NCBI GenBank assembly: GCA_017617525.1
Contig: JAFZWA010000007.1
Coordinates: 1-64,000 of the forward strand
Length of the DNA: 64,000 nt
Direction of reading: 5' to 3'
DNA from: Clostridiales bacterium
GTDB taxonomy: Bacteria > Bacillota > Clostridia > Saccharofermentanales > Saccharofermentanaceae
In this document: in pieces, positions 4,303 to 55,624 of the stretch
How positions within the stretch are numbered: the first letter of the stretch is position 1
Layout: every line of letters starts with the position of its first letter
The notes under the pieces: model-generated
What the model was told of the DNA's origin: nothing
What the model saw: the letters and a program-made list of their open reading frames with translations, nothing else
Database searches by the model: none
Position numbers and translations under genes: made by a program

Positions 4303-5379
4303 ATGACTTTTGAGCAACTAATGGATTATGCCATTGAACAAGATTGTTCTGACGTCCATATTACCGTCGGTACCAATCTTGCTGTTAGGCGATACGGTGT
4401 GCTTCATATCCTCGAGGAGTGCCCTACCGCAGAAGAATCTCTCGCAATGATTTATACGATCCTTTCTAACGAAGAGATCGCACGTGTAGAAGCCGGTGAA
4501 GACGTCGACCTGGGTCTCATGATCGACAATGAAATCAGAATCAGAGCTAACGTATATCATCAGCGCAATAATCTTGCTTGCAGCATCCGCCTCCTCATGG
4601 CTCAGATCCCTGAATTTGAAGACCTCGGCCTTCCGGAAGTTGTAAAGTCCATGGCAACTGCCAAGAACGGTATCATCCTCGTAACCGGTCCTACGGGTTC
4701 CGGTAAGACAACGACGATGTCCGCTATCGTTGACTACATCAATAAGAACGAAGCTAAGCACGTTATCACGATCGAAGACCCGATCGAGTACATCTACCCG
4801 CATAACCGTGCTATGATCCATCAGCGTGAGCTGCACCGCGATACAGATTCTTTCGCGAAAGCTCTTATGTCTTCCCTCCGTGAAGACCCGGATATCATCT
4901 ACGTTGGTGAGATGCGTGACTTCGAGACCATCGCGGCTGCCATCACTGCCGCTGAGACCGGTCACCTCGTTCTCGCAACACTCCACACATGTGGTGCCGC
5001 ACAGACGATCAACCGTATCATCGACGGTTCCCCGGCGGATAAGCAGGCGATCATCCGTCAGCAGTTCGCGACAAACATCCGTGGTGTTATTTCTCAGCTG
5101 CTTCTTCCGATCAAGGACGGCACAGGTCGTATCCTCGCAACAGAGATCATGGTCGGTACAACAGCTATCAAGAACCTGATCCTTGAAGAAAAGATCCAGA
5201 TGATCCACAGCACAATGCAGTCCAGCCGTGCTCAGGGCATGCACACTCTGAACGAAGACCTCATCCGTCTCTACAAGGAAGGCTTCCTCAGCTATCAGAC
5301 CATCGTAGACGCTACATACGATCTGCAGGATCTGGAAAAGGCTCTCGGACTCAACAAGCCGATCGGCGGAGCTTTCTGA
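4303..5379 (+). CDS. pilT: Type IV pilus retraction ATPase (PilT family)
   Basis: A 358-residue hexameric ATPase that powers pilus retraction from the cytoplasmic face. All family boxes are present: Walker A GPTGSGKT at 129-136, Asp box IEDPIEY at 157-163, Walker B DIIYVGE at 197-203, His box GHLVLATLHT at 220-229, and a variant of the AIRNLIRE motif (AIKNLILEE) at 288-296. The N-terminal PAS-like domain (SDVHIT) is intact, and length is normal for PilT. No pilin, PilB, PilC, PilM or prepilin peptidase gene lies in the window, so its partners must be elsewhere. It is a monocistronic unit closed by a strong terminator. Roles could include twitching or DNA uptake; the sequence does not decide. 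Confidence 0.93.
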   Translation: MTFEQLMDYAIEQDCSDVHITVGTNLAVRRYGVLHILEECPTAEESLAMIYTILSNEEIARVEAGEDVDLGLMIDNEIRIRANVYHQRNNLACSIRLLMAQIPEFEDLGLPEVVKSMATAKNGIILVTGPTGSGKTTTMSAIVDYINKNEAKHVITIEDPIEYIYPHNRAMIHQRELHRDTDSFAKALMSSLREDPDIIYVGEMRDFETIAAAITAAETGHLVLATLHTCGAAQTINRIIDGSPADKQAIIRQQFATNIRGVISQLLLPIKDGTGRILATEIMVGTTAIKNLILEEKIQMIHSTMQSSRAQGMHTLNEDLIRLYKEGFLSYQTIVDATYDLQDLEKALGLNKPIGGAF

Positions 5380-5406: not shown

Positions 5407-5440
5407 AAAAAAGAGCTGCCTCATGAGAGGCAGCTCTTTT
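5407..5440. terminator. Bidirectional terminator between pilT and the signalling operon
   Basis: A 14-bp perfect stem AAAAGAGCTGCCTC/GAGGCAGCTCTTTT with loop ATGA has T-runs on both sides, so it ends pilT and the convergent signalling operon. Two further strong hairpins lie nearer the operon stop: GGATCAC/GTGATCC (5467-5493) and GGCGCCT/AGGCGCC (5494-5511). The latter covers the last codons. Confidence 0.9.
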
Positions 5441-5502
5441 CATTTGCGTTTAATGTTTTGACAAGCGGATCACGCATTCAGACGATGTGATCCGGCGCCT
5501 GG

Positions 5503-8253
5503 TCAGGCGCCTCTTTGGTCGTCCTTATCCTTCTCACGAAGGAGCAGTCCGAAGGTTCCCGGTCCGCAGTTAACGGCGATTGCCGGGGATGCCTGCTGGA
5601 AGTATACTTCGTCGAACTTGATACGCTTTTCGATCTGCTCACGGATCCAGTCCAGATCACGCTTACTGAGACCTACATAGGTGACAAACAGGATCTTCGT
5701 GTCGATCGGTCTTTCACTTGCGAGGCACTTACCGATGTACTTCTTCCATGCTCTCTTTCTGGAACCGAAGAAGAGTTTTCCAAGACCCATGGTTCCCTTT
5801 TTCAGGACAAGTACCGGTCTTCCCATCAGGGAGTTGACCAGATTGGCCACACCCTTTCCTACCTGCTTGGCGCGGGCGAGGAAGTCGAGGTTATCTACGA
5901 TGAAACTTGTATGTACTTTCTTCTTCAGACGCTCTACTCTCGCGATGATCTCATCCGGGCTCTTTCCGTCTTCCGCCATACGGCAGGCTTCGATCGCCAG
6001 AAGTCCCTGACCGCTCGAGAGGTGTCCCGTATCGATAACGTAAACACTGTCGAAGGACTTGGATGCTTCGAGCGCGACCGCGAAACCACTGTGCTGGACC
6101 TTGCTCGAGATAGAGATATGGATGATATTGTTCGCGACGGACAGCTGCTTGGCGAAGAATTCTTCGACCTCTTTCGTCTCCGGGACCATTGTGGTAACTT
6201 CGCGGTCCGGATCCTCCATGTACTTGAGGACACCCTTCGTATCGATCTCGTTTCCGTCCTTGAAGATACCTTCTTTGGTCTGAACCTTATGAGGCAGCAC
6301 CGCGATGTCATATCTGTCGATCAGTTCCTGCGGAAGGTCGGCAACACTTTCAGTCGTGATAACGACTCTCTTCCTCTTCTTACTGTTATTCATCCAGGAG
6401 ATCGACTCCTCGGCGATCTCGGTCCTGTTACCCGTGATATGTACGATATCTCTCGGCAGGATTCTGTAAAGCTCGTTTTCAAGCTCCGCGCCGCTTACCG
6501 GTTTTACGAGATAACCATCGAAGTTTTCTTTCTGATAAAGCGCGCGGTTCTCTTCGTCGGCATTCGCCGTAAGGATGACGATGCTCGTCTCACGGCAGCG
6601 GCCGCCCGTCTGATCGATGATGCGGCGACGGCATTCGATACCGTCCATCTCCGGCATGAGGTGATCCATGAAGATCGCGTCATAATGGATGTTTAATGTC
6701 TTCCTCAGAGCGTCCGCTCCGCTTAAAGCCGTATCGACACGGACTTTCGTCTCGCGAAGGAGTTTGCTTACTACCATGAGGTTGGCTTCGTTATCGTCAA
6801 CGACGAGTATCCTTGCTTCCGGAGCTTCAAACTTAGGCACATAGTCTTCCTTGTGGCTTAAGCTTCCGGTCTTCTCGAAATTGTACTGACCCATCTTCGA
6901 CTTGTTCTCGCAGACCTGCGGAATCTCGATGATGAACGTGCTTCCCTTGGTGTAGACACTGTTAACGGTGACCTTACCGCCCATGAGATCGACAAGCTGC
7001 TTTACGATGGAAAGGCCGAGGCCCGTTCCCTCGATGTGCTTGTTCGTGTCTTCATCTACACGTTTAAAGGCCGAGAAGAGATACGGGATATCTTCAGGCT
7101 TGATGCCGACACCCGTATCCGAGACGTTGTAGATCATGTTGCAGGTGTTCTCGTTGACCATCTCACACTGAACGTTCAGAGAAACGGAACCTTCCTTGGT
7201 GTACTTGATGGCGTTATTCAAAACGTTGATCAGGATCTGCTTGATTCTGACATCGTCACCGATGAGTTCGTGCGGGATATCAGGAGAGACATCCACATGG
7301 AACTCCAGCTTTTTCTCTTTGGCGCGGATCCACATCATACCGACGAGATCGGAAAGCATCTCACCTGTCTGATACGGCGCGGAAAGCAGCTGCATACGGC
7401 CCGACTGGATCTTCGACATATCGAGGATATCGTTAATAAGGTTAAGAAGGAGCTTACCCGCGGATTTGATGTTCGCGGCGTCTTCCAGTACCTCTTCACT
7501 TACGTCTTCACGAAGGATCATCTCGTTAAGACCGATGATCGTGTTGATCGGAGTTCTGATCTCATGGCTCATATTGGAGAAGAAGCTGTTCTGCGCTTTG
7601 TTCAGCATCTCGATCTCCTGATGCTGACGGTTCGCCGTAACGATCTCTTTTTGCAGACAGTACTTCGTATAGAGCATGACGATACCCATGACCAGCTGGA
7701 ACACGAGGAATACCAGGAAGTTTACAAACGACTCCTGGGAAGTGATCCCCTTCTGCGAATAGGCAACGTACATAAGAAGTCCCATGCCAACATCTGAAAC
7801 AGTGACCAGACAGATATACTCAAGAGGATTCAAATAGATACAGATCGGAACCATCAGGGAGACAGCCAGGAAGATCGTCGTATCGATGTAATCGTTGAAG
7901 TGAACGTTCACAAAGGAAAGCGCGATACAAAGGGCATACATCATGACACCCAGGAACGGACTTAAGAACTTCATGACTTTGTATCTCGTGTCGAAGTCCT
8001 TGGACGCGTAGCGCATCAGTACGATCCAGAAGCATCCCGTCATGAGGAATGTAAGATATAAGATCCTGTGAAGCGGCAGACTGTTATCGAATGCCGACGG
8101 TTCGATCAAGGTCCAGATAAAGAACGCGAAGACGAATGCCATCGTGAACATGACCATCGCGTGCGTCGTTCTGGCCATTCCTTTGTAGATGGACTTTTCG
8201 ACTTCCTTATCGTGTGTCGAGGGTCTGAAAATGTAATCGATTATACCTTTCAT
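5503..8253 (-). CDS. Hybrid sensor histidine kinase with receiver, fused to a DegV domain
   Basis: A 916-residue fusion. Residues 25-200 hold about six membrane segments with no extracellular sensor. HisKA follows with H230 in FSNMSHEIRTP, then HATPase_c with the G boxes DTGVGI (379-384) and GTGLGLSIV (409-417). A receiver spans about 480-597 with phospho-acceptor D530 (IFMDHLMPEMDG) and K584 in LVKP. After a linker, residues 628-906 match the DegV/FakB fold in full length: VVITTESVADLP, HISISSK, VIDTGHLSSGQG and SFIVDNLDFL. Several FakB ligand residues are replaced (see findings). It overlaps the preceding kinase stop by ATGA. An internal ATG at 6393 with GAGGAG 12 nt upstream could yield a free 296-residue DegV. 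It has no HPt, unlike its two sister kinases. Confidence 0.88.
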   Translation of the reverse strand: MKGIIDYIFRPSTHDKEVEKSIYKGMARTTHAMVMFTMAFVFAFFIWTLIEPSAFDNSLPLHRILYLTFLMTGCFWIVLMRYASKDFDTRYKVMKFLSPFLGVMMYALCIALSFVNVHFNDYIDTTIFLAVSLMVPICIYLNPLEYICLVTVSDVGMGLLMYVAYSQKGITSQESFVNFLVFLVFQLVMGIVMLYTKYCLQKEIVTANRQHQEIEMLNKAQNSFFSNMSHEIRTPINTIIGLNEMILREDVSEEVLEDAANIKSAGKLLLNLINDILDMSKIQSGRMQLLSAPYQTGEMLSDLVGMMWIRAKEKKLEFHVDVSPDIPHELIGDDVRIKQILINVLNNAIKYTKEGSVSLNVQCEMVNENTCNMIYNVSDTGVGIKPEDIPYLFSAFKRVDEDTNKHIEGTGLGLSIVKQLVDLMGGKVTVNSVYTKGSTFIIEIPQVCENKSKMGQYNFEKTGSLSHKEDYVPKFEAPEARILVVDDNEANLMVVSKLLRETKVRVDTALSGADALRKTLNIHYDAIFMDHLMPEMDGIECRRRIIDQTGGRCRETSIVILTANADEENRALYQKENFDGYLVKPVSGAELENELYRILPRDIVHITGNRTEIAEESISWMNNSKKRKRVVITTESVADLPQELIDRYDIAVLPHKVQTKEGIFKDGNEIDTKGVLKYMEDPDREVTTMVPETKEVEEFFAKQLSVANNIIHISISSKVQHSGFAVALEASKSFDSVYVIDTGHLSSGQGLLAIEACRMAEDGKSPDEIIARVERLKKKVHTSFIVDNLDFLARAKQVGKGVANLVNSLMGRPVLVLKKGTMGLGKLFFGSRKRAWKKYIGKCLASERPIDTKILFVTYVGLSKRDLDWIREQIEKRIKFDEVYFQQASPAIAVNCGPGTFGLLLREKDKDDQRGA

Positions 8254-10925
8254 TTTTCTGTCCCTCCTTCCTCTTCATCCGGAATGAACTCGAGGATCTC
8301 CTCGGTATCTTCCGCGGCATCGGAAGAAGTGCTTTCCGCGGAGAACTCCAGGATCTCGTCATCCTGCGGTTCGGCCTTTGGCGGCGTTTCTTCTTCTGCC
8401 TTCTTTTCTTCTTTGGCTTCGCGGATCTCGTCGGCGAGGATCGTCGACAATCCCTTATAAAGCGCTCCGTATTCACTCATCAGCGGATAGTGGTTTTCCT
8501 TGATGAATTCTTCTTTCTTTTCTTTCGCCGCAAGCTCGAGCTGCTTGGCTTTATCCGAAAGCACTCCCGCGCCGATCATCTTTGAAGTGCTCTTCAAAGC
8601 ATGCACGAGGATCTCGTAATTTTTCCAGTCGGCGGATTCATAGTATCTGTTGATCAGCGGGATCTTCTCGGTCGCTTCCGTCGCGAACTGGACGAGGAGC
8701 GACTTATAGAACTCGAAATCATTCAGGCAGTATTTCATACCGGCATCGGTATCGACACTGTATGGTTTGAGCTGCTCACGAAGCGAAAGCGCCGTGATCT
8801 TCTGGACAGGTTCTTTTCGCATCTCTTCGAAATCCGGCTCCGGCTCGGAAGATTCGTCGATCTCTTCGTAAGTCACCATGGACTTCGGAAGTACCTGACG
8901 CATGACACGCTCGAGTTCATCCGTCTCGATCGGCTTACTGACGAATCCGTCAAAGCCTTCCGCAAGGAACATCTGCTTGGCGGAACTCATGGCATTCGCG
9001 GTAAGGGCAACGATCGGAGTCTCTCCGTTCTTGCCCGCGACATCCGAACGGATCCTCTTCATAGCTTCGACACCGTCCATGCCGCCCATCATGTGGTCCA
9101 TAAAGACGATATCGAACACCTTTTCACGGCAGATATCGATCGATTCCTGTCCGGAAAGCACTGTCGTTACTTCCATGCCGTAGTTTCTGAAGATACTCTT
9201 TCCAACGACGAGGTTCATCGGCTCGTCATCGACGACCAGAGCCTTGACGCCTCTGCAGAACATCTTAAATCCTGTAGCCTGCTTGTCGTGAACGCTCGTG
9301 TTGAGGACCGAAACGACCGGGAAGCAGTAGAACGGCTTTTCCATGACTCTCGCGTTCGAACCGGACACGAGCTTGAAGTCACCGTTGGCAACAACGACGA
9401 CGATCATATCTTTCGCGTATTCTTCGATCAGGTCGACATTCGAAGCGTATTCTTCTTCCGCGACGAACAGGTGCGTCATATGGATCGTGCTGTGCAGGAG
9501 TTTTAAGTCCTCCGGATTGTTTACACGGTGCATCTGAACGCCAAGGCCCTTAACGATATTCAGTACCATGGAGTTATAGTAGTCACGGACCTGCGGATCC
9601 GGATACTTTTCAAAGTGCAGATAAGCGCCGATGATCAGTTCGTCAGGGTGAGCGACCGACATGCAGGTCGTCGGATCGATGACTTTCATCGGAAGAGAAA
9701 CATGTACGCTCGTTCCCTTATCCGGCTTACTGCTGATCGTCATGAAACCGCCGAGCAGTGAGACAAAGCCGGAAACGATCGCAAGGCCGAGACCCAGGCC
9801 GCCGCCCATTCTCGCGCGTCCGGAGTCTGCCTGATAGAAGCTGTCATACACTTTCTCAAGTTCGTATTCCGACATACCGATACCGGTATCCGTGACTTCG
9901 ATACAGAGGTTGACGCCGTAGTCGTGCTTTTCGCATACGATACGTACATAGACGCCGCCCTTCTTCGTATATTTCAGACCATTGCCGATCAGGGCACGAA
10001 GGATCTTTTTCAGTTTGGAAACGTCGGTGTTCATGACGGCGGGGATCGCCGGGTCGACGTCGATGATGAGCTCAACATCCGCAGGCTTCAGGACACGGAT
10101 CTCTGTAACGAGGTCGTGAAGCACAGAAGAAAGCATATAGTCTTCACTGTTGTTAACGGCTTTCTTTCTGTCGAGCTCGGAATAGTCGAGGATGTCGCTG
10201 ATCTGGTCGGCGACTCTTCGGCCGGCTTCTCTTACCGCGATCAGGTCTCCGTAAATCTCACGGTTCTGTGACTTATCGATACAGATACTGGTCAGACCGA
10301 TAACGGCGTTGACCGGAGTTCTGATCTCGTGGGAAACATTTGCCAGGAAGTCATTCAGTCTTTCTGTCGCTTCCGTCAGCTGTTCGATCTCGAGCTTGGA
10401 AGTGGAGAATACCTGTGTCCACCTGTCGATGATGATCCTCGCGAAAAGCCCGACGACAAAGATCAGAAGAATGTGAAGAGCGATCCTTGTGATCTGTAAG
10501 TTATCGAAGCTTTCACCGTTATAGATCATCACGGAAATGTTGTACGTCATGGTCAGGTAGTAAGTGACCATGCAGATAGTGATCAATCCCTTCATTCCCG
10601 TTGTCGTGAAGAGCACGATCAGGACGGCCATCACGATCGCAAGATCATAGGTGCTTGTCGGATGGATACCGTAGAAGAACGCCGTACACATCATCAGGAC
10701 AGCGTAGATCCTCATTCTGAAAACAGGAGTTCCGTCTTTTCTGAAATGAATGATCCAGCAAATGATCACAGCCAGCGCGATGAGAGGAAGTATGAATTTC
10801 TCCCATCCCAGGAGGAACGATTCACCGATAAGAAGGATCGTACTTACCGTGAATGTGATCAGCACCATCAGGTGCGACGAGGCAAACAGGTCGTTTTGTT
10901 CATTGGACAGATTTGATTTATTCAT
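8250..10925 (-). CDS. Hybrid histidine kinase with degenerate receiver, receiver and HPt
   Basis: An 891-residue membrane kinase. It has about six hydrophobic segments between residues 18 and 165, HisKA with H199 (NVSHEIRTP), and HATPase_c (DTGIGM 346-351, GLGLGLAIV 376-384). A receiver-like stretch at 425-540 has no acceptor Asp. A full receiver follows with D610 (VFMDHMMGGMDG) and K664, then an HPt domain with H775 (LVHALKST). The acidic tail carries two copies of an EILEF motif. The ATG at 10925 is preferred over one at 10955, because GGAGGG lies 6-7 nt upstream. It overlaps the upstream stop by 8 nt (ATGAATAA). Its HPt is clearly paralogous to that of the dCache kinase (shared DWKNYEI and LKSTSK). 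Confidence 0.9.
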   Translation of the reverse strand: MNKSNLSNEQNDLFASSHLMVLITFTVSTILLIGESFLLGWEKFILPLIALAVIICWIIHFRKDGTPVFRMRIYAVLMMCTAFFYGIHPTSTYDLAIVMAVLIVLFTTTGMKGLITICMVTYYLTMTYNISVMIYNGESFDNLQITRIALHILLIFVVGLFARIIIDRWTQVFSTSKLEIEQLTEATERLNDFLANVSHEIRTPVNAVIGLTSICIDKSQNREIYGDLIAVREAGRRVADQISDILDYSELDRKKAVNNSEDYMLSSVLHDLVTEIRVLKPADVELIIDVDPAIPAVMNTDVSKLKKILRALIGNGLKYTKKGGVYVRIVCEKHDYGVNLCIEVTDTGIGMSEYELEKVYDSFYQADSGRARMGGGLGLGLAIVSGFVSLLGGFMTISSKPDKGTSVHVSLPMKVIDPTTCMSVAHPDELIIGAYLHFEKYPDPQVRDYYNSMVLNIVKGLGVQMHRVNNPEDLKLLHSTIHMTHLFVAEEEYASNVDLIEEYAKDMIVVVVANGDFKLVSGSNARVMEKPFYCFPVVSVLNTSVHDKQATGFKMFCRGVKALVVDDEPMNLVVGKSIFRNYGMEVTTVLSGQESIDICREKVFDIVFMDHMMGGMDGVEAMKRIRSDVAGKNGETPIVALTANAMSSAKQMFLAEGFDGFVSKPIETDELERVMRQVLPKSMVTYEEIDESSEPEPDFEEMRKEPVQKITALSLREQLKPYSVDTDAGMKYCLNDFEFYKSLLVQFATEATEKIPLINRYYESADWKNYEILVHALKSTSKMIGAGVLSDKAKQLELAAKEKKEEFIKENHYPLMSEYGALYKGLSTILADEIREAKEEKKAEEETPPKAEPQDDEILEFSAESTSSDAAEDTEEILEFIPDEEEGGTEK

Positions 10926-13299
10926 TACCGCCCTCCTTTTGCTTACGTTCTTCATCTTCTTTCATGATGGAGATCATGATATCAGCGAATTTCGGGTCAA
11001 ACTGCGTGCCCTTTCCCTTCGTGAGCTCGGCGATGATCTCCTCTTTTGAAAGACTTTTTCTGTAGCTTCGGTTGCTGGACATGGCATCGTAGGAATCGGC
11101 CACGGCAATGATCCTGGCCGCCTCCGGAATGTCAAATCCCGACAGTCCGTCCGGATATCCCCTTCCGTCGAACCGTTCGTGATGGTAATGCGCCGCGATC
11201 GTGAGTTCCGGATCCTCTTTGATGTTCGAAAGGATCTTCGCACCCATGCCCGGATGCTCCTTGATCTTGGCAAACTCCTCATCCGTTAATGCACTCGGTT
11301 TGTTGATGATATCATTCGGCACGCCGATCTTGCCGACGTCATGGAGAAGACCCATCATGTAGATCTCATCCTGACGGAATTCCGAATAACCGGCACGCGC
11401 GGCGATCCTCTTCGCGTATTCCGCCACACGTCCCGAGTGACCTCTCGTATAGAGGTCCTTGGTATCGATCGCCGCCGCGAGAGACTCGACGACATGAACA
11501 AGAAGAAGTCTGTTTTCCTGTGTCTTCTTCTGTACTTCAAAGTTCAGCTGGTTCTGAAGCGTAACAAGCTCGATCATGTGCTTGACGCGAAGGAGCAAAA
11601 CTTCCGGAACGAAAGGCTTTCTGATAAAGTCCATCGCGCCGAGGGAAAGACCCTTGCTTTCCGCGCCCTGACTTTCGTCTGCCGTAAGGAACATGACCGG
11701 AGTATTGGCCGCATCCGCGCTGATCGTACGAAGCTTCTGCAATGTCTCATATCCGTCCATCTCCGGCATCTTTACGTCCAGAAGGATCAGATCCGGACAG
11801 TCATTTCCGTCCGCGATGTAGTTGATCAGTGCTTTTCCCGATTTAAGAGCCGTTACGCGGATACCGCCTGACGAAAGGATCTTGCCCGCGACCTGCAGGT
11901 TCATCGCGTCGTCATCGACGATGATGACGGTTCTGTCTTTCTTTCTGTTGTACTTCGACTCGTATTCGTTTCCGAGGAATTCGCTCTCGAATCTGACATT
12001 GAGACGGCGGCCCATATGGCGTTCCCAACGCTCGACGATATGGTTGATGACCTTGCCCGTACTGTCCTCACGGATGTCCGTCAGGAAGACAAAATACTGA
12101 TTCTTTCTGTTTCGCATCAGGATGTCTGTCTTACGAAGCGACTGGCGGATGTGATTGCCGAACTCATCGAGAAGATCGACATATTCCTCATTCGAAGTCT
12201 CTTCCGTCTTTTCCAGCGTGAAAAGCACCTTGCAGGCAGAGATCCTGTTTCGGATGATGTATCGGATGATATATCTGTATACAGGGGAGAAAGAATCCTT
12301 ATCGAGCTGCAGCGCGACATCCGGGATAGTTCTTTCACCGAGGATGCCGGAGATCGCGGCGATATCAGGAAGCGCGTCGCCCGAATCGTCATCGTCGAAA
12401 GCCTCGACGGAGAAAAGGCTGTAGCCGTGCTTTCCGTTTTTCTTCACGTTATAGAGAGCCTTGTCGGCCTGCTTAAAGAGCGTATTGAAATCGTTGCCGT
12501 GACGCGGTACATGGATGGCACCGATCGAAGCGCCGAGTGGGATATCCATATCCTCGCCCATCAGGTCTTTGGCCATGGCGACGACTTCGCTGTTGAGTTT
12601 TTCGGTGATCTCGGCAACCGGTCCTTCGGTCGTCACGCCCTTGGCAAAAGCGATGAACTCGTCGCCGCCCAATCGTCCGCAGGTGCTTCCGTCCGGAACC
12701 GCGTTTTTAATGATCTGCGCGAATCCCAGAAGAACCTTGTCGCCCATGTCGTGTCCGTAGATATCGTTGACGGGCTTAAAGGAGTCGAGGTCGATCATCA
12801 TCAGGCAGCCGGTGGTGTTGGCACATATCTTGGTCATCATGGCTTCTGTCGCGCCCTTATTGAGAAGACCGGTGAGCTTGTCGATGGAAGCTTCACTTTT
12901 CAGGTTCTGCATCTCGGATCTGCTCGACATTACGTTGTCGATACGACGCATCAGAACGTCAGGGTTAAACGGTTTTCTTACAAAGTCCGAAACGCCCATC
13001 TCGAAGCCTCTCGTCTCTGTATTCGTATCTTCGTCTGCCGTCAGGAAGATGACGGGAGTCGCTTCGGCGTTGACCGACTTTTCGTAATCACGGAGAAGCT
13101 TCAGTGTCTCAAATCCGTCGATGCCCGGCATCTTGATATCCAGAAGGATCAGATCCGGGAATCCTTTCTCCGGGATATATTCCAGGAGCGCGTTACCCGA
13201 CTTGAGAGCCGTTACGCGCATGTTGTTTCTGCTCAGGATATGTCCTGCCATCTTAAGGTTAGCGGTATCGTCATCGACAACCATTACCCACTTCGCCAT
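10918..13299 (-). CDS. Two-receiver GGDEF and HD-GYP c-di-GMP enzyme
   Basis: A 793-residue cytoplasmic response regulator. Receiver 1 (3-122) has acceptor D54; a GGDEF domain (about 136-298) has an intact RLGGDEF at 209-215 but no RxxD inhibitory site five residues before it. Residues 320-440 look like a decayed GGDEF domain (KTDILMRNRKNQYFVF in place of the active half-site). Receiver 2 (456-575) has acceptor D508. HD-GYP spans about 595-785, with H652-D653 (LLHDVGKIG), HH at 706-707 (YHHERFDGRGYPDG) and GYP. It can therefore both make and break c-di-GMP, each output behind its own receiver. The start has AGGAGG 7 nt upstream. It lies 15 nt after the dCache kinase and overlaps the next gene by 8 nt. 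Confidence 0.92.
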   Translation of the reverse strand: MAKWVMVVDDDTANLKMAGHILSRNNMRVTALKSGNALLEYIPEKGFPDLILLDIKMPGIDGFETLKLLRDYEKSVNAEATPVIFLTADEDTNTETRGFEMGVSDFVRKPFNPDVLMRRIDNVMSSRSEMQNLKSEASIDKLTGLLNKGATEAMMTKICANTTGCLMMIDLDSFKPVNDIYGHDMGDKVLLGFAQIIKNAVPDGSTCGRLGGDEFIAFAKGVTTEGPVAEITEKLNSEVVAMAKDLMGEDMDIPLGASIGAIHVPRHGNDFNTLFKQADKALYNVKKNGKHGYSLFSVEAFDDDDSGDALPDIAAISGILGERTIPDVALQLDKDSFSPVYRYIIRYIIRNRISACKVLFTLEKTEETSNEEYVDLLDEFGNHIRQSLRKTDILMRNRKNQYFVFLTDIREDSTGKVINHIVERWERHMGRRLNVRFESEFLGNEYESKYNRKKDRTVIIVDDDAMNLQVAGKILSSGGIRVTALKSGKALINYIADGNDCPDLILLDVKMPEMDGYETLQKLRTISADAANTPVMFLTADESQGAESKGLSLGAMDFIRKPFVPEVLLLRVKHMIELVTLQNQLNFEVQKKTQENRLLLVHVVESLAAAIDTKDLYTRGHSGRVAEYAKRIAARAGYSEFRQDEIYMMGLLHDVGKIGVPNDIINKPSALTDEEFAKIKEHPGMGAKILSNIKEDPELTIAAHYHHERFDGRGYPDGLSGFDIPEAARIIAVADSYDAMSSNRSYRKSLSKEEIIAELTKGKGTQFDPKFADIMISIMKEDEERKQKEGGNE

Positions 13300-13314: not shown

Positions 13315-15981
13315 CTAGTTATTATCCTCCGGGAGGAACTCGAACACCTCGTCGTCCTCCGCGATATCGTCTTCTTTCACTTCCATATTTTCCTCGATGA
13401 CCTTTACGATCTTCTCGTAAAGATCCATCGCCTTGCCGTGTCCGTCCGAAAGCGCGAGCTCATCTCCCTTGCCCGCTGCTTCTTCCAGGTCGGCCGCCAT
13501 CTCGAAAAGCTTTTTCGCGCCGATCGTCTTGCTCGTGCTCTTGAGCGAATGGATGTAGATCTCATAGTTCTTCCAGTCGCGTTTCTCGTAGCAGCTCACA
13601 AGGTTCTGGAACTTGCTCTTCTTTTCCGTGCAATACTCGGAAAGTATCGATTTATACATTTCCGTATCGCCCTGACAGAAGTAAAGTCCCGTCTTCGGAT
13701 CCACCCCGTTTTTCGTCAGCGCCTCGAAAAGCACCGCCGTCTTTTCGTCTCCCGAAGATACGTCTTCTTCGACCTTCTCCTCGACGATCTCGATCTTGCT
13801 CTTCGGAAGATGCGTCAGAAGCATCTTCTCGAGCTCATGTCCGTTGATCGGCTTTGTCAGATAATCATCGAAGCCCTGCTCGATGTATCTTTCTCTCGCG
13901 CCACGGATGACATCCGCGGTCAGACAGATGATCGGCGTCTTCTCGTTGAGCTTGCTCTCGAGCTTTCTGATCTCACCCATCGCTTCCGTTCCGTCCATGA
14001 TCGGCATACGCTGATCCATGAGGATCATGTCGTATTTGGTCTCGTCACAGAGACGGATCGCTTCTTTTCCGCTCAACGCCGTATTGATGCGCACTCCCGT
14101 TTTCTTCAGAAGATTTGCCGCGACGGCGATATTCATCTTCGTGTCGTCAACGATCAGGATCAATGCCGTCGGCGCGTGGAAGGATTCCTTGTAGACCTCC
14201 TCGGTCTCCTCTTCCGGCGCGTTTCCGACTTCAAATTCTCCGATCGGATCATTGTTCTCGACCTTCTGCCAGATCTCGAACCAGAACTTGGAACCGACGC
14301 CGTATTCGCTCTCGACCTTGAGCTCACTATCCATGAGTCCCAGAAGTTTCGTGCAGACCGACATGCCCAGTCCCGTGCCCTCGATGTTCCTGTTTCTTTC
14401 GACATCCAGCCTCTCGAACGATTCAAAGAGACGTTTCATATCCTCTTCTTTAATGCCAATTCCTGTGTCTTTTACTTCAACAAAAAGAAGAATTTTTCCA
14501 TCGGGGGTATTTTTTCTCTCTTTTTCTTTGACGGTTAAGGTGACCGACCCCTTCTCCGTATACTTCACGGCGTTGGTCAAAAGGTTCATGATGACCTCGT
14601 TGATACGCGTGTTATCACCGTAAAGCTCCGACGGGATATTCGGATCGATATCGGTCTGAAGCTCGAGGTTTTTCGATCTTGCTCTTTCCGAGATCGAATT
14701 CATGACATAGGAAAGCTGGGATTTCACATTGTAAGGCGCGGAGACGATCTCCATCTTGCCGTTCTCGATCTTGGAAAAATCGAGGATGCTGTTTACGAGC
14801 GTCAGAAGATTCTGTCCGGACTGACGGATATTTCTGGAGTAGCCCATGATCTCTCTGTTTTCCGTCTCACGGATGATCATCTCGTTCATGCCGAGGATCG
14901 CGTTGATCGGGGTACGGATCTCATGTGACATATCCGCGAGGAACCGGCTCTTGGCTTCACTTGCCTCGTCGGCCGCCTGTTTTTCGAGACGCAGAACCTT
15001 CTCCGCGTATTCCTGCTGCTGCGTTCTGTACTTATCGAGAACGAGAGCCAGCACGACGGCACAAGTACCGCCGATGAGCGCCGCGACGACTGCCGCGATC
15101 AGAAAGCTCGTGACCAGGCCGTTAAGACCTTTCTGCATTTCGCTCTTACTTGTCGCGATACCGACATGCCATCCGCTGTTCTGCATCTTGGAAACGACGA
15201 TACCTCTCGTGACACCGTCATAATCCTCGACATAGACCGTCTCGTGGGAATCCTTGCGCATGTTGTTCACGACATCTCCGTATGGAGAACCGGAAACTTC
15301 AAGAATACCGACCGGATCATCGACAAATGTATATGCCTCGTTCGGGTGGACGATGACGCCCATGTTCTGGTCGACAAGGAAAGCGTAGCTGTCTTCCGCG
15401 ACATCGGCATCGTTGATGATGTCCACCAGAACATCGACGAAGATATCCGCGGCGATGATGCCCTTGAGCTCACCGTCCGCGCGTACGGCCTTCGAGATCG
15501 TGATGATCGGTACTTTCGTATCCGAATCCATGTAAGGGACGGAATAGTAGATCTCGTTCGTTTCCGCCGCGACCGTATACCAGTCGCGCTCGTGAGAAAA
15601 ATCGACGGTTCCGTCCGCGACGAAATCCGAGGCGCACGCCATCGTGTTATCCGGGAAAGTGAAATAGATATCGTAGATATAGCCCTTCGTGTTCAGGCTG
15701 TCATATACGGATTTTAAATAGTCATGGAAAAAGGCGCCGTCCTGATCAAAGAACCGGCTGTATTCGATATTCGCGGCAAGCGTGTCGACGATCGTGGCAT
15801 TACCGTTGAGCCACGTAGTCAGCTCCTGCGCGTATTTATCTGCCGCCACGCGGTACTTTTCTTCCGACTGGGAGAAAACACTCTGCTTCGCTCTTCGATA
15901 ACTGATCATGGAAAGAAGACCGGTACTGGCCAGAATGACCAGTACGATCATTGCCGTCATCTTAACACGGAAACTCCTCAT
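13315..15981 (-). CDS. dCache hybrid histidine kinase with receiver and HPt
   Basis: An 888-residue kinase and first gene of the signalling operon. TM1 spans 9-27, an extracellular double-Cache sensor about 32-285 (DWYTVA, YYSVPYMD, IAADIF), and TM2 287-315. HisKA has H353 (DMSHEIRTP), and HATPase_c shows DTGIGI 505-510 and GTGLGMSV 535-542. The receiver has D656 (ILMDQRMPIMDG) and K710 (LTKP), and HPt has H811 (YIHSLKST). The tail ends in DEVFEFLPED. The Cache domain suggests a small-molecule ligand such as an amino or organic acid; which one is not readable. The ATG at 15981 has AGAGGT directly against it, so the ATG eight codons in (15960, AGGAG 13 nt upstream) is an alternative. No clear promoter was found in the 161-nt gap upstream. 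Confidence 0.9.
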   Translation of the reverse strand: MRSFRVKMTAMIVLVILASTGLLSMISYRRAKQSVFSQSEEKYRVAADKYAQELTTWLNGNATIVDTLAANIEYSRFFDQDGAFFHDYLKSVYDSLNTKGYIYDIYFTFPDNTMACASDFVADGTVDFSHERDWYTVAAETNEIYYSVPYMDSDTKVPIITISKAVRADGELKGIIAADIFVDVLVDIINDADVAEDSYAFLVDQNMGVIVHPNEAYTFVDDPVGILEVSGSPYGDVVNNMRKDSHETVYVEDYDGVTRGIVVSKMQNSGWHVGIATSKSEMQKGLNGLVTSFLIAAVVAALIGGTCAVVLALVLDKYRTQQQEYAEKVLRLEKQAADEASEAKSRFLADMSHEIRTPINAILGMNEMIIRETENREIMGYSRNIRQSGQNLLTLVNSILDFSKIENGKMEIVSAPYNVKSQLSYVMNSISERARSKNLELQTDIDPNIPSELYGDNTRINEVIMNLLTNAVKYTEKGSVTLTVKEKERKNTPDGKILLFVEVKDTGIGIKEEDMKRLFESFERLDVERNRNIEGTGLGMSVCTKLLGLMDSELKVESEYGVGSKFWFEIWQKVENNDPIGEFEVGNAPEEETEEVYKESFHAPTALILIVDDTKMNIAVAANLLKKTGVRINTALSGKEAIRLCDETKYDMILMDQRMPIMDGTEAMGEIRKLESKLNEKTPIICLTADVIRGARERYIEQGFDDYLTKPINGHELEKMLLTHLPKSKIEIVEEKVEEDVSSGDEKTAVLFEALTKNGVDPKTGLYFCQGDTEMYKSILSEYCTEKKSKFQNLVSCYEKRDWKNYEIYIHSLKSTSKTIGAKKLFEMAADLEEAAGKGDELALSDGHGKAMDLYEKIVKVIEENMEVKEDDIAEDDEVFEFLPEDNN

Positions 15982-25125: not shown

Positions 25126-26976
25126 TTATCCTCGGATCGAGAAATAAGCCTTTCCGTTTTCCATCTGCACATTCTTGTATTCCGCCAGTTCATCGATAGT
25201 CACGAGAGTGAATCCCGCGTCGATCAGGGCCGGAACGATGGTCTCGACTGCTGTCGCTGTTGTCTCGTAGAGATCGTGCATGAGAACGATGTCGCCGTCA
25301 CGCACATTGTTCAGTACTTCGTTGATGACATGATCGCTGTCCTTATATTTCCAGTCATTTGTGTCGATCGACCAAATGATCATGGGCATACCTACGTTTG
25401 CGGACACTGTCGAGTTATAAGAACCTCCGACAGGACGCATGACGACCGGACGGATACCGGTCAGGTTGTAAACTGCATCGGCGCAGTCGTTGATCTGTGT
25501 GCTTACCGCGTCGCCGGAGATCCTGGTCAGTGTCGTGTGATTCCATGTGTGGTCACCGATCTGGCATCCCAGATTCACCGCGCGGACGATGCATTCTTTG
25601 TAGTTGTTGACGCGGTTACCGACGACAAAGAATGTCGCGTGCGCGCCATAAGGTTCGAGCGCGTCAAGGATACGCATCGTAACGTCTGTGTACGGACCGT
25701 CGTCAAAGGTAAGCGCGACGACTTTTTCCGGCACTTTCTTTTCGACCTTTGTATCGATCCCGTATTCGCTCATCTTCGCGTCAAACGCCGGATCACTTAA
25801 GATCGACTCGAGGACTCTTTCTCTCGTGACGCCGTTCTTCAGACCGATCTTATACGCTTCGATCTTTTCCGGAGCGGCGGCTTGTCCGTAGCACACATCA
25901 AATACGGCATTGAGGTATTCGTCATCCGTCGCGAAAAGCGTCATGCTCTCAGGGTTAGAGAGCATCTCCACGATCGCGTCTCTCGTCTTGCCGGAATCTT
26001 CGAGCGTCTCCGAAACATAGGAATTCAGATCCTCCGCACTCGGACGTTTTCCCGCGAACTGCGTGTAAAGACGTGTCAGGAAAGATGTCAGTTCCGGATT
26101 CTTATCTCTTGCTTCCGTGAGCGTCACGGTACCCGGTCGGATCCCGACGCTGCTGCAGTTGGAAAGATAGTTCGGATCGGATGCGATCTGCGACGCGACA
26201 TATGTCATCGACAAACCGCTGTCGAGCATGCCGAGGTAGGCTTCTTTTTCAGAAGGATCCGCTGTTCTTCCGAGCATGACGGACGAAAGCACGTCGATCG
26301 TCGACTCATCGGACAGGCATCTGGAAGTGAACTCCGAAGACTTCACGATATCCATAAGCGTCGGGGCGAGTTCTTTTCCCTCGGTAAAATACTGACACCA
26401 GATGTTGTACTCTTCCGTCACCGGAGCTCTTCCATACATCTGCTCGAAAAGCACTTTAACGAAGTTCGTCATCTCGGGATTTATGTCGCGGCTGTCGAGG
26501 TCCGTGATCGTACCCGGTTCGATCTGATACTGCGCGCAGATCTGCGCGAACTCAGGCGTTACCGCCATGTCGGCAAGGTAACGGCGGATCGAGATGCCGC
26601 AGTTCAAATAGTAGACATACGTCTGTTTAGTCGTATCATCGGCCGGCTTTCCGGTCATCGTCTGAGACAGCACGTCGATCGTCTGCTCAGGCGTATAGTT
26701 TTTACGATAGAAATCATAGCTCTGGGTAAGCATGTCGATCAGGCCGACAGCCGTGGTGCTACTGTCCTTCAAGTGCCAGTACCAGTAGCCGAAGCGTTCA
26801 CTGTCGGCTTCTTTATCCAGGATGGTTCCGTAGATATAGTCGACGAAATCCGCGGTGAGGTCTTCTTTTGCGCGCGACTTCGACGGAACCAAACAGGTGC
26901 CCGCAAAAACCGCGATCGTCAGGATCATACAGATGAATCGAAGAACGAATCTGACCCCTTTAGCAAAAGCTTTCAT
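25126..26976 (-). CDS. Secreted polysaccharide deacetylase with DUF4214-like repeats
   Basis: A 616-residue exported protein. A signal peptide or anchor spans residues 8-28. Residues 38-405 are three tandem units of about 125 residues resembling DUF4214 (each with a YGR/GKxA-type turn; units two and three open near PGTITDLDSRDINPE and PGTVTLTEARDKNPE). The NodB domain (about 415-605) has D425-D426 (LTFDDGPY), H476 and H480 (HTWNH), R514 (RPVGGSYN) and H567 (LMHD), so catalysis should be intact. It would remove N-acetyl groups from peptidoglycan or another surface glycan. The second ATG (26976) is preferred because AGAGG then sits 7 nt upstream; the first touches it. Confidence 0.88.
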   Translation of the reverse strand: MKAFAKGVRFVLRFICMILTIAVFAGTCLVPSKSRAKEDLTADFVDYIYGTILDKEADSERFGYWYWHLKDSSTTAVGLIDMLTQSYDFYRKNYTPEQTIDVLSQTMTGKPADDTTKQTYVYYLNCGISIRRYLADMAVTPEFAQICAQYQIEPGTITDLDSRDINPEMTNFVKVLFEQMYGRAPVTEEYNIWCQYFTEGKELAPTLMDIVKSSEFTSRCLSDESTIDVLSSVMLGRTADPSEKEAYLGMLDSGLSMTYVASQIASDPNYLSNCSSVGIRPGTVTLTEARDKNPELTSFLTRLYTQFAGKRPSAEDLNSYVSETLEDSGKTRDAIVEMLSNPESMTLFATDDEYLNAVFDVCYGQAAAPEKIEAYKIGLKNGVTRERVLESILSDPAFDAKMSEYGIDTKVEKKVPEKVVALTFDDGPYTDVTMRILDALEPYGAHATFFVVGNRVNNYKECIVRAVNLGCQIGDHTWNHTTLTRISGDAVSTQINDCADAVYNLTGIRPVVMRPVGGSYNSTVSANVGMPMIIWSIDTNDWKYKDSDHVINEVLNNVRDGDIVLMHDLYETTATAVETIVPALIDAGFTLVTIDELAEYKNVQMENGKAYFSIRG

Positions 26977-27108
26977 ATACATACCTCTTTACATAAAACT
27001 CCACTTAATCAGTATATACTACGCGCATAACAATTAAATGACATATATGCAATTTTCAGGTTACCGATTTTGGCGAAAGATTGTTATAGTTTCAGGAACG
27101 ATACTTGT

Positions 27109-52633: not shown

Positions 52634-55579
52634 TTATGCTGCCGGAGTCTCTGTTGTTGTCGTTGTCGTATTCAGCATAGCCGCCGGCGGGAGCTTGATC
52701 TGTACACCTTCAGCAGGTACGAAGGAAGCGTCGAGTCCGTTGTATGTCAGGATCGTCGTTACACGAGGATCAGACTCGGAATCGAGGTTGACGCCGTATA
52801 CGGTATGGAAGAGATCCCACCATGTGCGGCAGCCTGTCTTCGCGGAGAAGGTATAAACACCGATCGGATCGTTTTCGGAACTCGGAGTAGATTCCGGAAC
52901 TACCGGAGTCGTGTCGGTCGGGACCGTGTCGGATGTGGAATCGGAGATATCCGTGATCGCCGTATCGGAAACGGACAGATCCGTCTCGGAGCTCTTAGAG
53001 CTTCCGCAGGACTTCACGATCAGCACGATGATGATGATCAGGCAGACCAGGGAAACTGCAGCGAGTACGAAAGGCAGATAGCTGGAACCGAAGCCCTCAT
53101 CGCCACTGTCGAAGCCGTCATCGATCGTATCCGGTCTTCTTCTTGCAGGCTGTGTGTTCGGACGGTTGCCCGGACGCTGTGGCTGCTGCGGACGCTTCAC
53201 ACCCGGAACGGAACCCGGACGAACTGCCTCACCCTGCTGCATGTATGCGGGGATGGAGGAAGCAACGGGCTCTGCCGCGGAAGGAGCGCCTGTCGGAGCC
53301 ATATCGAAAAGATCTGCCACGGACGGCGGCGGATTGTCAAAGTCATACTGCTGAGCGGCAGCTGCTGCGTACGGATCATAATCCGCTTCACTTACTGCCG
53401 GGATCTCCTGTGTCGGCTCGTCGTAGTAAGCGCTTCCCGCGTCGGAGAAATCAGGCTGATCCAGATTCACGAACGGGGATGCCGGAGCCGGTGCCGGATT
53501 AACGAACTGCGACGGAGCAGCTTCGTCTTCGTCTACTGTGTAGGAACCGCGAGCGTAAACGCCTGTGTCCTCGTAGCCGACCGGTGTATCGCTGTTTGTC
53601 GGATACGTCGGCGGAACATATGACGGAGCTTCGTAAAGCGGCATTTCCGGAACATCGTTGGCAGAAGCGGTCGCGTTGTTTGTCGCGTCACCGGATGCGA
53701 ACGGGATCACGAACTCGCTGCCGGACGGAACTTCTTCGGAAGGAGCCATGCTCTCTGCGTAGTCAGCCGGGTAACCTTCTTGTGCCTCATATTGATCTTC
53801 AGCGGATGATTCTGCGTCACCGAAGAAAAGTGGTGTTTCGTCGAACTCTTTTGGATCGTTGGAATACTCGGGCTCATCGTTCATAGGCTTTTTCACCTCA
53901 TCTTCCGCTTCGAAAACAAGAGGTGCGTCCTCTTCTGTTTCCGCAACAAACGCCGGAGCCGATCCTCCGGAGATCTGTTCAGTTCCTGCCACGTTCTGTT
54001 TCTCGGCGGGTTCAACAGGCTTTCCTGCGAAGAGATCATCGCCGATATAAAGCGGAGCACCGGTATCGGGTTCTTCTGCCGGGCTCTCTCCGCCTACTTC
54101 GAAAGATGCTTCGTCGGTGGCTTCTTTTACGATGCCTTCCGAGTCATTCTGAGCCTTGACGGCTGCCTTGAAGAACGGGTTGTCCTCGTTCTTTACGGCT
54201 ACGAAAGGCTCATCCTTCTTGATTTCTTCTGTCTTCTGCGGAAGTACGAACGGACTTGCGGATTCTGCCGCTGTCTCTGCCGTTTCAGCTGTCTTTGCTT
54301 CGAGCTCGGCCGCTGCCTTGTCAAAGCTGTTCACGAACGGAACGACCTTCGTAACTTCGTCATTCTCCTCTGCCTTAGCTTCGGCAACAGGAGCGTCTTT
54401 TGCCTTTTCGGGAACCGGTGTCACGCCGGTGTCGTCTTTCATCAGATCAGAAATGTCGCCGAACGAAAGCGGCGGTTCCGGAATCGGTGTATTGATCGCG
54501 TCATCGACCGCAGAGCCTGCCGCCGCGCCTACTGCCGCGGAAGCTGCTGCTTTAGATGTCTCGGCGCCGAGGGAAGCGATCGCGTCAGCCGCTGTGCCGA
54601 CAGGCGGGATCACCGCCGTAGTCTCGATGGCTTTTGCCTCAGGTGTCTTTTCTTTCTCATCGCCGAAAAGCATCGCGCCCGGAGCCGGCTCCTTCTCTTC
54701 CGTCTTCGGAGAATCGAGCGGTACCGGCGGAGCAACGTTGTACTCGTCGTCGTAATCTTCCTGCTGCGCGGCCTTCTTCTTCTTTCTTCCGAATCCGAAC
54801 AGTCCGCCTCTCTCGCTGGATGTGATGTCTTCAACGAAGGAGATCATGAACTGAAGCGGAACGCCCGGAAGCTTTGCCGCTGCTTCGGTGATAACTACGC
54901 TTGCCGCGTCACTCTGGTCCTCGGCGTCGTAGAGGATACGCAGGAGTTCCTGCTGACCTAATGCCTCATAGACTTCGCGGTTACAGAGAATGATGCAGTC
55001 ATCAAGTTTCAGCTGGGCGATGTTGGAGCAGAGCGCCGGAGCTGTCTTTGTCGCGCAGAAATTATAGAAATTGTCGACCTTCTGACGAGCGGTGTTGATC
55101 GCGTCGATACGGATATCGGTCGCTGTCATCGGGTAGAGTGTGTCATCACGATAAAGGAATGCGAGTCCTTTTCCGATAGTGGAAGCAAACGCCTCACCGT
55201 CTTTGACCATAACGCCGGCAAAGAACGGAGCACGGCTGTTGTCCTGCTGGATCTTCATCTTACCGGTAATGGAAACGGCGGTATTGACCATCTCGCCGAT
55301 CGAATCATCAAGAGATCTTCTTCCGGCCTTCAGTTCGGTACCGAGGCGGCGCAGGAACGGCTCATACGGCGGAAGCGCGTTCGGATCCTGATCCGGGATC
55401 GTCTGGTGAGAGAATACGGAGAAGAAAAAGCCTCTGTCCTCTTTGTCGTTCGTCAGATCCGCGGAGCGGGCGACCGTCTTACTGGTCACACGACCATCCA
55501 TATAAAATGCGTCTGTCAGTTCTGCTGTAGGAAAATATCTTGCTGTAAGCGTCGTCGCAAGACGAGTCTGCTTTGCCAT
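52634..55579 (-). CDS. PP2C-like pseudophosphatase, disordered linker, membrane helix, LysM-like domain
   Basis: A 981-residue protein. Residues about 15-255 follow the PP2C fold (strand pattern ending LDDCIILCNREVYEALGQQELLRILYD), but the metal-binding Asp positions are lost: GDSR is GKGL and SDG is NRE. A very long acidic, Ala/Pro-rich linker follows (about 265-830), holding repeated short motifs such as PLSFGD, PLYIGD and PLFFGD. One membrane helix lies at 834-857. Outside is a Ser/Thr-rich stalk and a domain (about 905-960, TWWDLFHTVYG...ILTYNGLD) resembling LysM, which binds peptidoglycan. The ATG at 55579 is chosen for GGAGG 9 nt upstream. Monocistronic. Confidence 0.75.
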   Translation of the reverse strand: MAKQTRLATTLTARYFPTAELTDAFYMDGRVTSKTVARSADLTNDKEDRGFFFSVFSHQTIPDQDPNALPPYEPFLRRLGTELKAGRRSLDDSIGEMVNTAVSITGKMKIQQDNSRAPFFAGVMVKDGEAFASTIGKGLAFLYRDDTLYPMTATDIRIDAINTARQKVDNFYNFCATKTAPALCSNIAQLKLDDCIILCNREVYEALGQQELLRILYDAEDQSDAASVVITEAAAKLPGVPLQFMISFVEDITSSERGGLFGFGRKKKKAAQQEDYDDEYNVAPPVPLDSPKTEEKEPAPGAMLFGDEKEKTPEAKAIETTAVIPPVGTAADAIASLGAETSKAAASAAVGAAAGSAVDDAINTPIPEPPLSFGDISDLMKDDTGVTPVPEKAKDAPVAEAKAEENDEVTKVVPFVNSFDKAAAELEAKTAETAETAAESASPFVLPQKTEEIKKDEPFVAVKNEDNPFFKAAVKAQNDSEGIVKEATDEASFEVGGESPAEEPDTGAPLYIGDDLFAGKPVEPAEKQNVAGTEQISGGSAPAFVAETEEDAPLVFEAEDEVKKPMNDEPEYSNDPKEFDETPLFFGDAESSAEDQYEAQEGYPADYAESMAPSEEVPSGSEFVIPFASGDATNNATASANDVPEMPLYEAPSYVPPTYPTNSDTPVGYEDTGVYARGSYTVDEDEAAPSQFVNPAPAPASPFVNLDQPDFSDAGSAYYDEPTQEIPAVSEADYDPYAAAAAQQYDFDNPPPSVADLFDMAPTGAPSAAEPVASSIPAYMQQGEAVRPGSVPGVKRPQQPQRPGNRPNTQPARRRPDTIDDGFDSGDEGFGSSYLPFVLAAVSLVCLIIIIVLIVKSCGSSKSSETDLSVSDTAITDISDSTSDTVPTDTTPVVPESTPSSENDPIGVYTFSAKTGCRTWWDLFHTVYGVNLDSESDPRVTTILTYNGLDASFVPAEGVQIKLPPAAMLNTTTTTTETPAA

Positions 55580-55624
55580 ATCTTGAAGCCTCCAAATAGT
55601 GGGATCACCCATTTCTTCTTGTTA

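Follow-up and report, generated by a model that had tools for sequence, protein, structure and literature searches.

A DegV domain fused to a hybrid histidine kinase in Saccharofermentanaceae: a candidate ligand-binding input module in a cyclic di-GMP phosphorelay operon

Introduction

The subject of this report is a gene of a Clostridiales bacterium (family Saccharofermentanaceae) that encodes a hybrid histidine kinase with a DegV domain at its C-terminal end. The gene lies at positions 5503..8253, minus strand, of a 64,000-nucleotide stretch of contig JAFZWA010000007.1, and this whole stretch is referred to below as the window. The closest described relatives of the domain are the FakB/DegV proteins (COG1307; TIGR00762, PF02645). 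Free DegV proteins act as lipid carriers in the fatty acid kinase (Fak) system, as described in excerpts of PMC9136124. Excerpts of PMC9136124 and PMC8892158 report that Arg173 of FakB1 is conserved in all FakBs and is essential for the Fak reaction, and that the R173A protein exchanges fatty acid normally and contains palmitate in its crystal. The region of Arg205 in FakB1 serves FakA and membrane docking. The DegV domain of the window differs from these proteins in being fused to a kinase, in carrying glutamine in place of Arg173 and in belonging to a clade of its own, and it also differs from FakB in its setting, a genome in which FakA, PlsY and PlsX were not found above cut-off. DhaQ, the co-activator of the Dha operon in Lactococcus lactis (2iu4), and DhaK have another ligand and another partner, are not fused to a kinase and show 14% identity.

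The second point of comparison is RpfC/RpfG, in which the fatty-acid signal DSF (diffusible signal factor) lowers cyclic di-GMP (c-di-GMP) and type IV pilus function is affected, according to excerpts of PMC3749722. The same excerpts describe a hybrid kinase with a receiver and an Hpt domain, a receiver/HD-GYP partner and a c-di-GMP output, all of which have counterparts in the window. However, the window operon has a pair of hybrid kinases and joins GGDEF and HD-GYP in one protein, and no DegV domain is named for RpfC in those excerpts; the likeness is one of anatomy only. The window protein also shares the HisKA-HATPase_c-receiver core of hybrid kinases of the BarA, TorS and ArcB type (NCBIfam; all listed kinase models scored below their curated cut-offs), but unlike these it has a C-terminal DegV domain and lacks an Hpt domain.

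No description of a kinase-DegV fusion or of a DegV c-di-GMP operon was found in the open-access literature, which agrees with the initial annotation, to which no described system of this kind was known. Likewise, nothing was found there on c-di-GMP in Saccharofermentans or on DhaQ and DhaS of Lactococcus lactis. A hybrid kinase phosphorelay is a known kind of system; for a DegV sensor module no description was found. To our knowledge, it is mostly not established which signals hybrid kinases and the c-di-GMP modules of clostridia respond to.

In the reading put forward here, the DegV domain binds a ligand and serves a membrane-bound hybrid histidine kinase as its input, or regulatory, module; this reading is given a probability of roughly 0.6. 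Through the kinase the cell probably detects a lipid or a molecule of a similar kind, and an acyl compound is the likely ligand of the domain.

Domain organization of the kinase-DegV protein

The gene and its parts are as follows (all on the minus strand).

5503..8253, minus: hybrid histidine kinase-receiver-DegV protein, 916 amino acids (open reading frame, Pfam, NCBIfam)
7654..8253, minus: N-terminal membrane part, residues 1-200, six hydrophobic segments (hydropathy; helices in the structure model)
7399..7593, minus: HisKA, residues 221-285, 1.2e-17, phospho-acceptor His230 in SHEIRTP (Pfam, alignment)
6916..7260, minus: HATPase_c, residues 332-446, 2.2e-26 (Pfam)
6472..6810, minus: receiver (Response_reg), residues 482-594, 2.5e-20, Asp530 in MDHLM (Pfam, alignment)
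6367..6471, minus: linker between receiver and DegV, residues 595-629, conserved SWM (alignment)
5536..6366, minus: DegV domain, residues 630-906 (Pfam, NCBIfam, fold model)
5863..5865, minus: codon of Gln797, at the place of FakB1 Arg173 (profile alignment, counts)
5569..5571, minus: codon of Asn895, at the place of FakB1 His270 (profile alignment, counts)

The initial annotation had proposed a fusion of a kinase and a DegV domain in one frame of 916 codons, and this was confirmed by the open reading frame, the Pfam matches to HisKA, HATPase_c, receiver and a nearly full-length DegV, and hydropathy. The frame is uninterrupted and begins with an ATG; this codon and the stop codon of the next gene upstream overlap (ATGA, 8250-8253), and AGGAGG stands in front of the ATG. 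The six hydrophobic segments fall within residues 1-194 and are separated only by short loops. The protein has the parts of a hybrid histidine kinase, namely HisKA with its histidine, HATPase_c and a receiver with its aspartate, and both His230 and Asp530 are invariant across 24 aligned full-length sequences, the window protein included. The Pfam match to DegV (PF02645, residues 630-906, 3.4e-45, 155 bits against a cut-off of 27) covers profile positions 2-278 of 280, so the domain is whole and above the curated cut-off; the NCBIfam model TIGR00762 scored 166 bits against a cut-off of 99.7. Modelled alone, the domain takes the DegV fold with confidence (predicted local distance difference test, pLDDT, 87.5). 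The model of the whole protein had a predicted template modelling score (pTM) of 0.37, and no statement on domain packing is drawn from it.

Recurrence of the fusion

A Pfam search for DegV with follow-up covered 115 family genomes and found the fusion in 67, the window genome included; frames of at least 450 amino acids were called fused. Several of these copies are incomplete: a break interrupts the frame of L040 within its kinase part, contig ends truncate L049 and L096, and L097 has a run of N. In one further genome (G084, locus L100) a contig end truncates this domain, which gives 68 genomes with a fused-type domain. No DegV of any kind was found in 34 of the 115. A scan of named genomes gave 547 pattern matches, 472 of which were relatives; receiver and DegV share one frame in all 80 contigs that were kept as the best 80 of these 472. 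The carriers include Saccharofermentans, Ruminococcaceae AB4001 and YAD3003, Lachnospiraceae G41 and Ruminococcus flavefaciens, many of them from rumen samples, and AB4001, YAD3003 and Lachnospiraceae G41 are isolates. The family set and the named set overlap in part, with the same contigs occurring in both, and were deduplicated to 94 distinct fused-type DegV domains. In a second family (f28) a match at 1e-60 was found in 47 of 299 genomes, and 57 of the 62 matches listed sit in frames of at least 450 amino acids.

The ratio of nonsynonymous to synonymous substitution (dN/dS) of the DegV part had a median of 0.055 and a maximum of 0.139 over 19 close pairs (one without a finite value), which indicates purifying selection. 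These results bear on the explanation that the fusion was made by an assembly or frame error. The window genome is an assembly of 64 contigs, which would leave room for such an error, but recurrence in 67 family genomes and in named isolates and the low dN/dS argue against it. This explanation was rejected, its probability being next to nil, and the assembly error at the domain boundary that the initial annotation had named as its own possible refutation was not observed.

One clade of kinase-linked DegVs in several positions

A first tree, built from 75 domains, placed the kinase-linked DegVs in one clade of 43 rows, with a Shimodaira-Hasegawa-like approximate likelihood-ratio test (SH-aLRT) value of 99. 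The clade adjoins the standalone DegVs of the class and lies away from the free DegVs of the family. A second tree, which kept 13 of the 35 window-type rows and took in 33 DegV domains from the second family (the f28 set), again gave one clade (52 rows, SH-aLRT 100). It holds every kinase-linked or kinase-operon DegV of the f28 set and excludes two others, L289:14937 and L291. Both were quick trees with SH-aLRT support only, and the first used 75 of the 150 distinct domains. L099 is absent from them (more than 90% identical to L098), L098 and L101 may be joined by branch length in the first tree, and L288, L216 and one standalone row have long branches in the second.

Within this clade the position of DegV relative to the kinase varies. 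It stands behind the receiver in the window protein, and directly behind the receiver in most copies. It stands between receiver and Hpt in 8 of the 33 DegV proteins of the f28 set and in L214, and an Hpt above the Pfam cut-off follows DegV in all four proteins checked (L214, L276, L277 and L281). In L285:5431-8304 it precedes the membrane segments and the kinase, the far end of this gene being cut by the contig. In L288:10264-12852 HATPase_c and DegV are kept and HisKA and receiver are undetected by Pfam; by eye, the membrane part of this protein resembles that of the partner kinase at 8250-10955 of the window. Lastly, DegV is a separate gene in kinase operons in L098, L099, L101, L286, L287 and L289:4992, and in L098 and L099 this gene lies between the REC-GGDEF and REC-HD-GYP genes (REC, receiver). 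The separate forms of L098, L101, L287 and L289 branch outside the fused rows and that of L286 branches inside them, which may mean that the separate gene came first and that L286 arose by a later split. An additional arrangement considered for L102 (a 399-amino-acid frame) was rejected, as its start is overlong, DegV begins at residue 114 and the domain groups with standalone DegVs.

The initial annotation had offered a choice between a sensor and an output under phosphorylation control, and it is the sensor or regulatory side that the varied positions within one clade favour. A domain found before, inside and after the kinase, and outlasting a decayed receiver, points to an input or regulatory module. 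If it were an output domain, phosphorylation of the receiver would open or close DegV, which would then store, release or pass a lipid to another protein. The place directly behind the receiver in most copies is the usual one for an output, and the carrier role of free DegVs in the Fak system (Introduction) would suit it. Against this, DegV precedes the kinase in L285, persists in L288 where HisKA and receiver are undetected, and is followed by Hpt in 8 loci. The changes of position are more readily explained by a movable input module than by an output that the receiver drives, and an output role is considered quite unlikely.

The c-di-GMP phosphorelay operon

The window gene closes a conserved c-di-GMP phosphorelay operon of the order REC-GGDEF(-REC-HD-GYP), HK-REC-Hpt, HK-REC-DegV (HK, histidine kinase). 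In the window it is the last of four genes in a row: dCache-HK-REC(-Hpt), REC-GGDEF-REC-HD-GYP, HK-REC-Hpt and HK-REC-DegV. The neighbouring features are as follows.

8250..10955, minus: partner hybrid kinase, membrane part-HK-receiver-Hpt, directly upstream with a 4-base overlap (open reading frame, Pfam)
10918..13299, minus: REC-GGDEF-REC-HD-GYP protein, GGDEF, HDVGK and RGYP motifs intact (Pfam, motif check)
13315..15981, minus: dCache-HK-receiver protein, weak Hpt with HSLKS motif; adjoins the module in loci of the window's genus, g1 (Pfam)
5408..5441, no strand: terminator-like inverted repeat between the operon and pilT (inverted-repeat check)
4303..5379, plus: PilT-like ATPase, convergent neighbour in genus g1 (Pfam T2SSE)

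An HK-REC-Hpt gene lies directly upstream in 62 of the 67 family loci, 3 more being at a contig end and 2 partial or broken. The gene beyond it carries GGDEF and/or HD-GYP in 58 of the 67, with 7 at contig ends and 2 other. The SHEIRTP, GGDEF, HDVGK and RGYP motifs and the HALKS motif of Hpt are all intact in the window operon, and the Hpt of the 13315..15981 protein scored 21.3 bits, below the cut-off of 24.6. The operon is equipped for phosphotransfer and for both synthesis and breakdown of c-di-GMP, and it presumably carries these out.

The product of 4303..5379 is read as PilT-like. Its gene is convergent to the operon in 16 of 18 genus g1 loci (the remaining two stop close to the end of a contig) and was found beside the fused gene in this genus only. 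The window genome has one MshEN protein (L295:259-1968, minus strand; T2SSE 445.8 bits), which is read as an assembly ATPase of the PilB kind. It contains two stretches close to RLGxx..Q that are 7 residues apart, compared with a spacer of 5 residues in the c-di-GMP-binding motif as given in excerpts of PMC5013675. PilZ, a candidate c-di-GMP receiver, had no match in the window genome.

The fatty acid kinase route

In the window genome (G000, 94.97% complete) FakA (PF13684, PF02734) and PlsY had no match, and PlsX had none above cut-off, with one weak match of 22.7 bits against 29.1. With this result the first glycerolipid acylation in G000 is in question. The fused DegV is the sole DegV of this genome. 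FakA occurs in 33 of the 68 genomes with a fused-type domain and is lacking in 35, and 33 of these 35 have no other DegV either (the genomes are related and some are incomplete). Conversely, all 43 FakA genomes among the 115 also have a free DegV. The association of fused DegV with FakA (Fisher p 0.003) and the size of the p value for free DegV with FakA were not relied on, as the genomes are related. In G099, the sole g1 genome in which FakA matched, a free DegV, PlsX (PF02504, 230 bits) and FakA (three FakA domains) stand side by side at L102:3853-7523.

At the place of Arg173 all 94 fused domains have Gln, and Arg is kept in 35 of 35 distinct free domains of the family and in each of the 12 standalone DegVs from the class. 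Here and below, residue places were assigned by profile alignment to FakB1 and counted over these three sets. The window protein has Gln797 at this place and so does not have the FakB arginine. Because there is no FakA or PlsY, no PlsX above cut-off and no other DegV, and because Arg173 is Gln in 94 of 94, the fused DegV is judged not to be a working FakB in this clade. A FakB function was rejected for the window's clade on the missing FakA and the Gln at this place. It is very improbable that the fused DegV goes on serving a fatty acid kinase as its fatty acid carrier: its family membership and the 33 genomes with FakA would allow this, but every FakA genome has a free DegV, Arg173 is kept in none of the fused domains, and 33 fused-type genomes have neither FakA nor another DegV. 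The initial annotation had also considered the hand-over of a ligand; in the window genome, the lack of FakA, of PlsY and of a PlsX above cut-off and the Gln at the place of Arg173 speak against a fatty acid kinase as the recipient. The lack of FakA, the known acceptor, in the window genome and in 35 of the 68 also counts against an output domain that passes on its lipid.

Residues of the DegV domain compared with FakB

The motifs quoted in the initial annotation (TTESVAD, TTMVPET, HSGFAVA and VNCGPG) are all present in the sequence. It had also stated that the histidine of the GTHTGPG motif is replaced. This holds, the place of His270 being Asn in 94 of 94 fused domains (Asn895 in the window), but the change is not diagnostic, for Ser or Asn also stands there in 33 of the 35 free family domains, most of them from FakA genomes. 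The missing histidine was therefore rejected as a sign of lost Fak function. Loss of Arg173 was likewise rejected as a mark of the whole kinase-linked lineage, as 13 of 33 f28 DegV domains keep Arg; at least 2 of these 13 (L289:14937 and L291) fall outside the kinase-linked clade. A basic residue before a conserved Gly near Arg205 is Arg in 12 of 12 standalone and Lys or Arg in 29 of 35 free domains; it is Phe in 91 of 94 fused domains, which is a further point against an output domain, although its match to Arg205 is unsure by one, the alignment placing Arg205 on the Gly itself. Around FakB1 Ala121 and Ala158 the alignment of the free family domains was too uncertain and was not used.

These residues also bear on the explanation that the DegV fold is kept only as a ligand-free scaffold, a docking or dimer surface in the kinase complex. 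The replacement of Thr62 (in 70 of 94), Arg173 and His270 would be expected of such a scaffold, as would the variation of the f28 copies at several head-group places. However, the domain is under purifying selection and is modelled with confidence, its SSGQG, SFIV and NxGxGTFG motifs hold invariant or nearly invariant residues, and Ser95 is retained in the window's clade (90 of 94 fused domains). A scaffold without ligand is considered unlikely.

Several observations weigh against reading the domain as a ligand-binding input module. First, the order REC-DegV of the window protein would also be expected of an output domain. Secondly, with Arg173 and His270 gone and Thr62 mostly replaced (Pro in 70 of 94), the head-group site is judged to be rebuilt, so the domain may bind something other than a fatty acid, or nothing at all. 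Third, in the helix with which FakB1 enters the membrane, hydrophobic residues of FakB1 are polar here (Trp180 to Asn in 80 of 94, Leu184 to Ser in 89 of 94). In addition, f28 is not uniform: Arg173 is kept in 13 of 33 domains of one set and in 1 of 6 of another, and the place of Ser95 is Ser in 8 of 33 and Gly in 13. Lastly, the link to the pilus is one of guilt by association, with the pilT neighbourhood in one genus only.

Proposed mechanism

As an input module, the DegV domain would bind a fatty acid or another acyl ligand from the membrane or the cytoplasm. Because the Arg, the His and mostly the Thr of the head-group site are gone, the head of this ligand would perhaps be less charged than that of a free fatty acid. 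Occupancy by the ligand would alter the balance of kinase and phosphatase activity. Phosphate would then pass from His230 to Asp530, to the Hpt of the neighbouring kinase and to the receivers of the GGDEF/HD-GYP protein, and c-di-GMP would rise or fall. In the window's genus the target would likely be the type IV pilus, by way of the sole MshEN assembly ATPase and the convergent PilT. Pilus extension is a sensible candidate output.

Other features of the window

A 1072-amino-acid frame at 34124-37342 matches the membrane protein family DUF2298. A 992-amino-acid frame at 52634-55612 had no Pfam match at 1e-4 and may be a shadow frame. A polysaccharide deacetylase with DUF4214 is encoded at 25126-26982.

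Significance

The combination of fatty-acid-binding kin and an operon conserved in rumen and gut clostridia names a testable class of signal for these kinases. It would add, besides DSF/Rpf, another way for a fatty-acid-like signal to set c-di-GMP. For annotation, a genome's single DegV should be named FakB only once its partners have been checked. Tentatively, and at a little under even odds, the DegV carrier fold may have been turned once into a movable sensor, and lipid-gated hybrid kinases of clostridia may form a widespread class that has gone undescribed. Free fatty acids or other acyl compounds would then set c-di-GMP, and thereby pili or surface behaviour, in clostridia of gut and rumen, even in hosts in which an acyl-phosphate route is not detectable.
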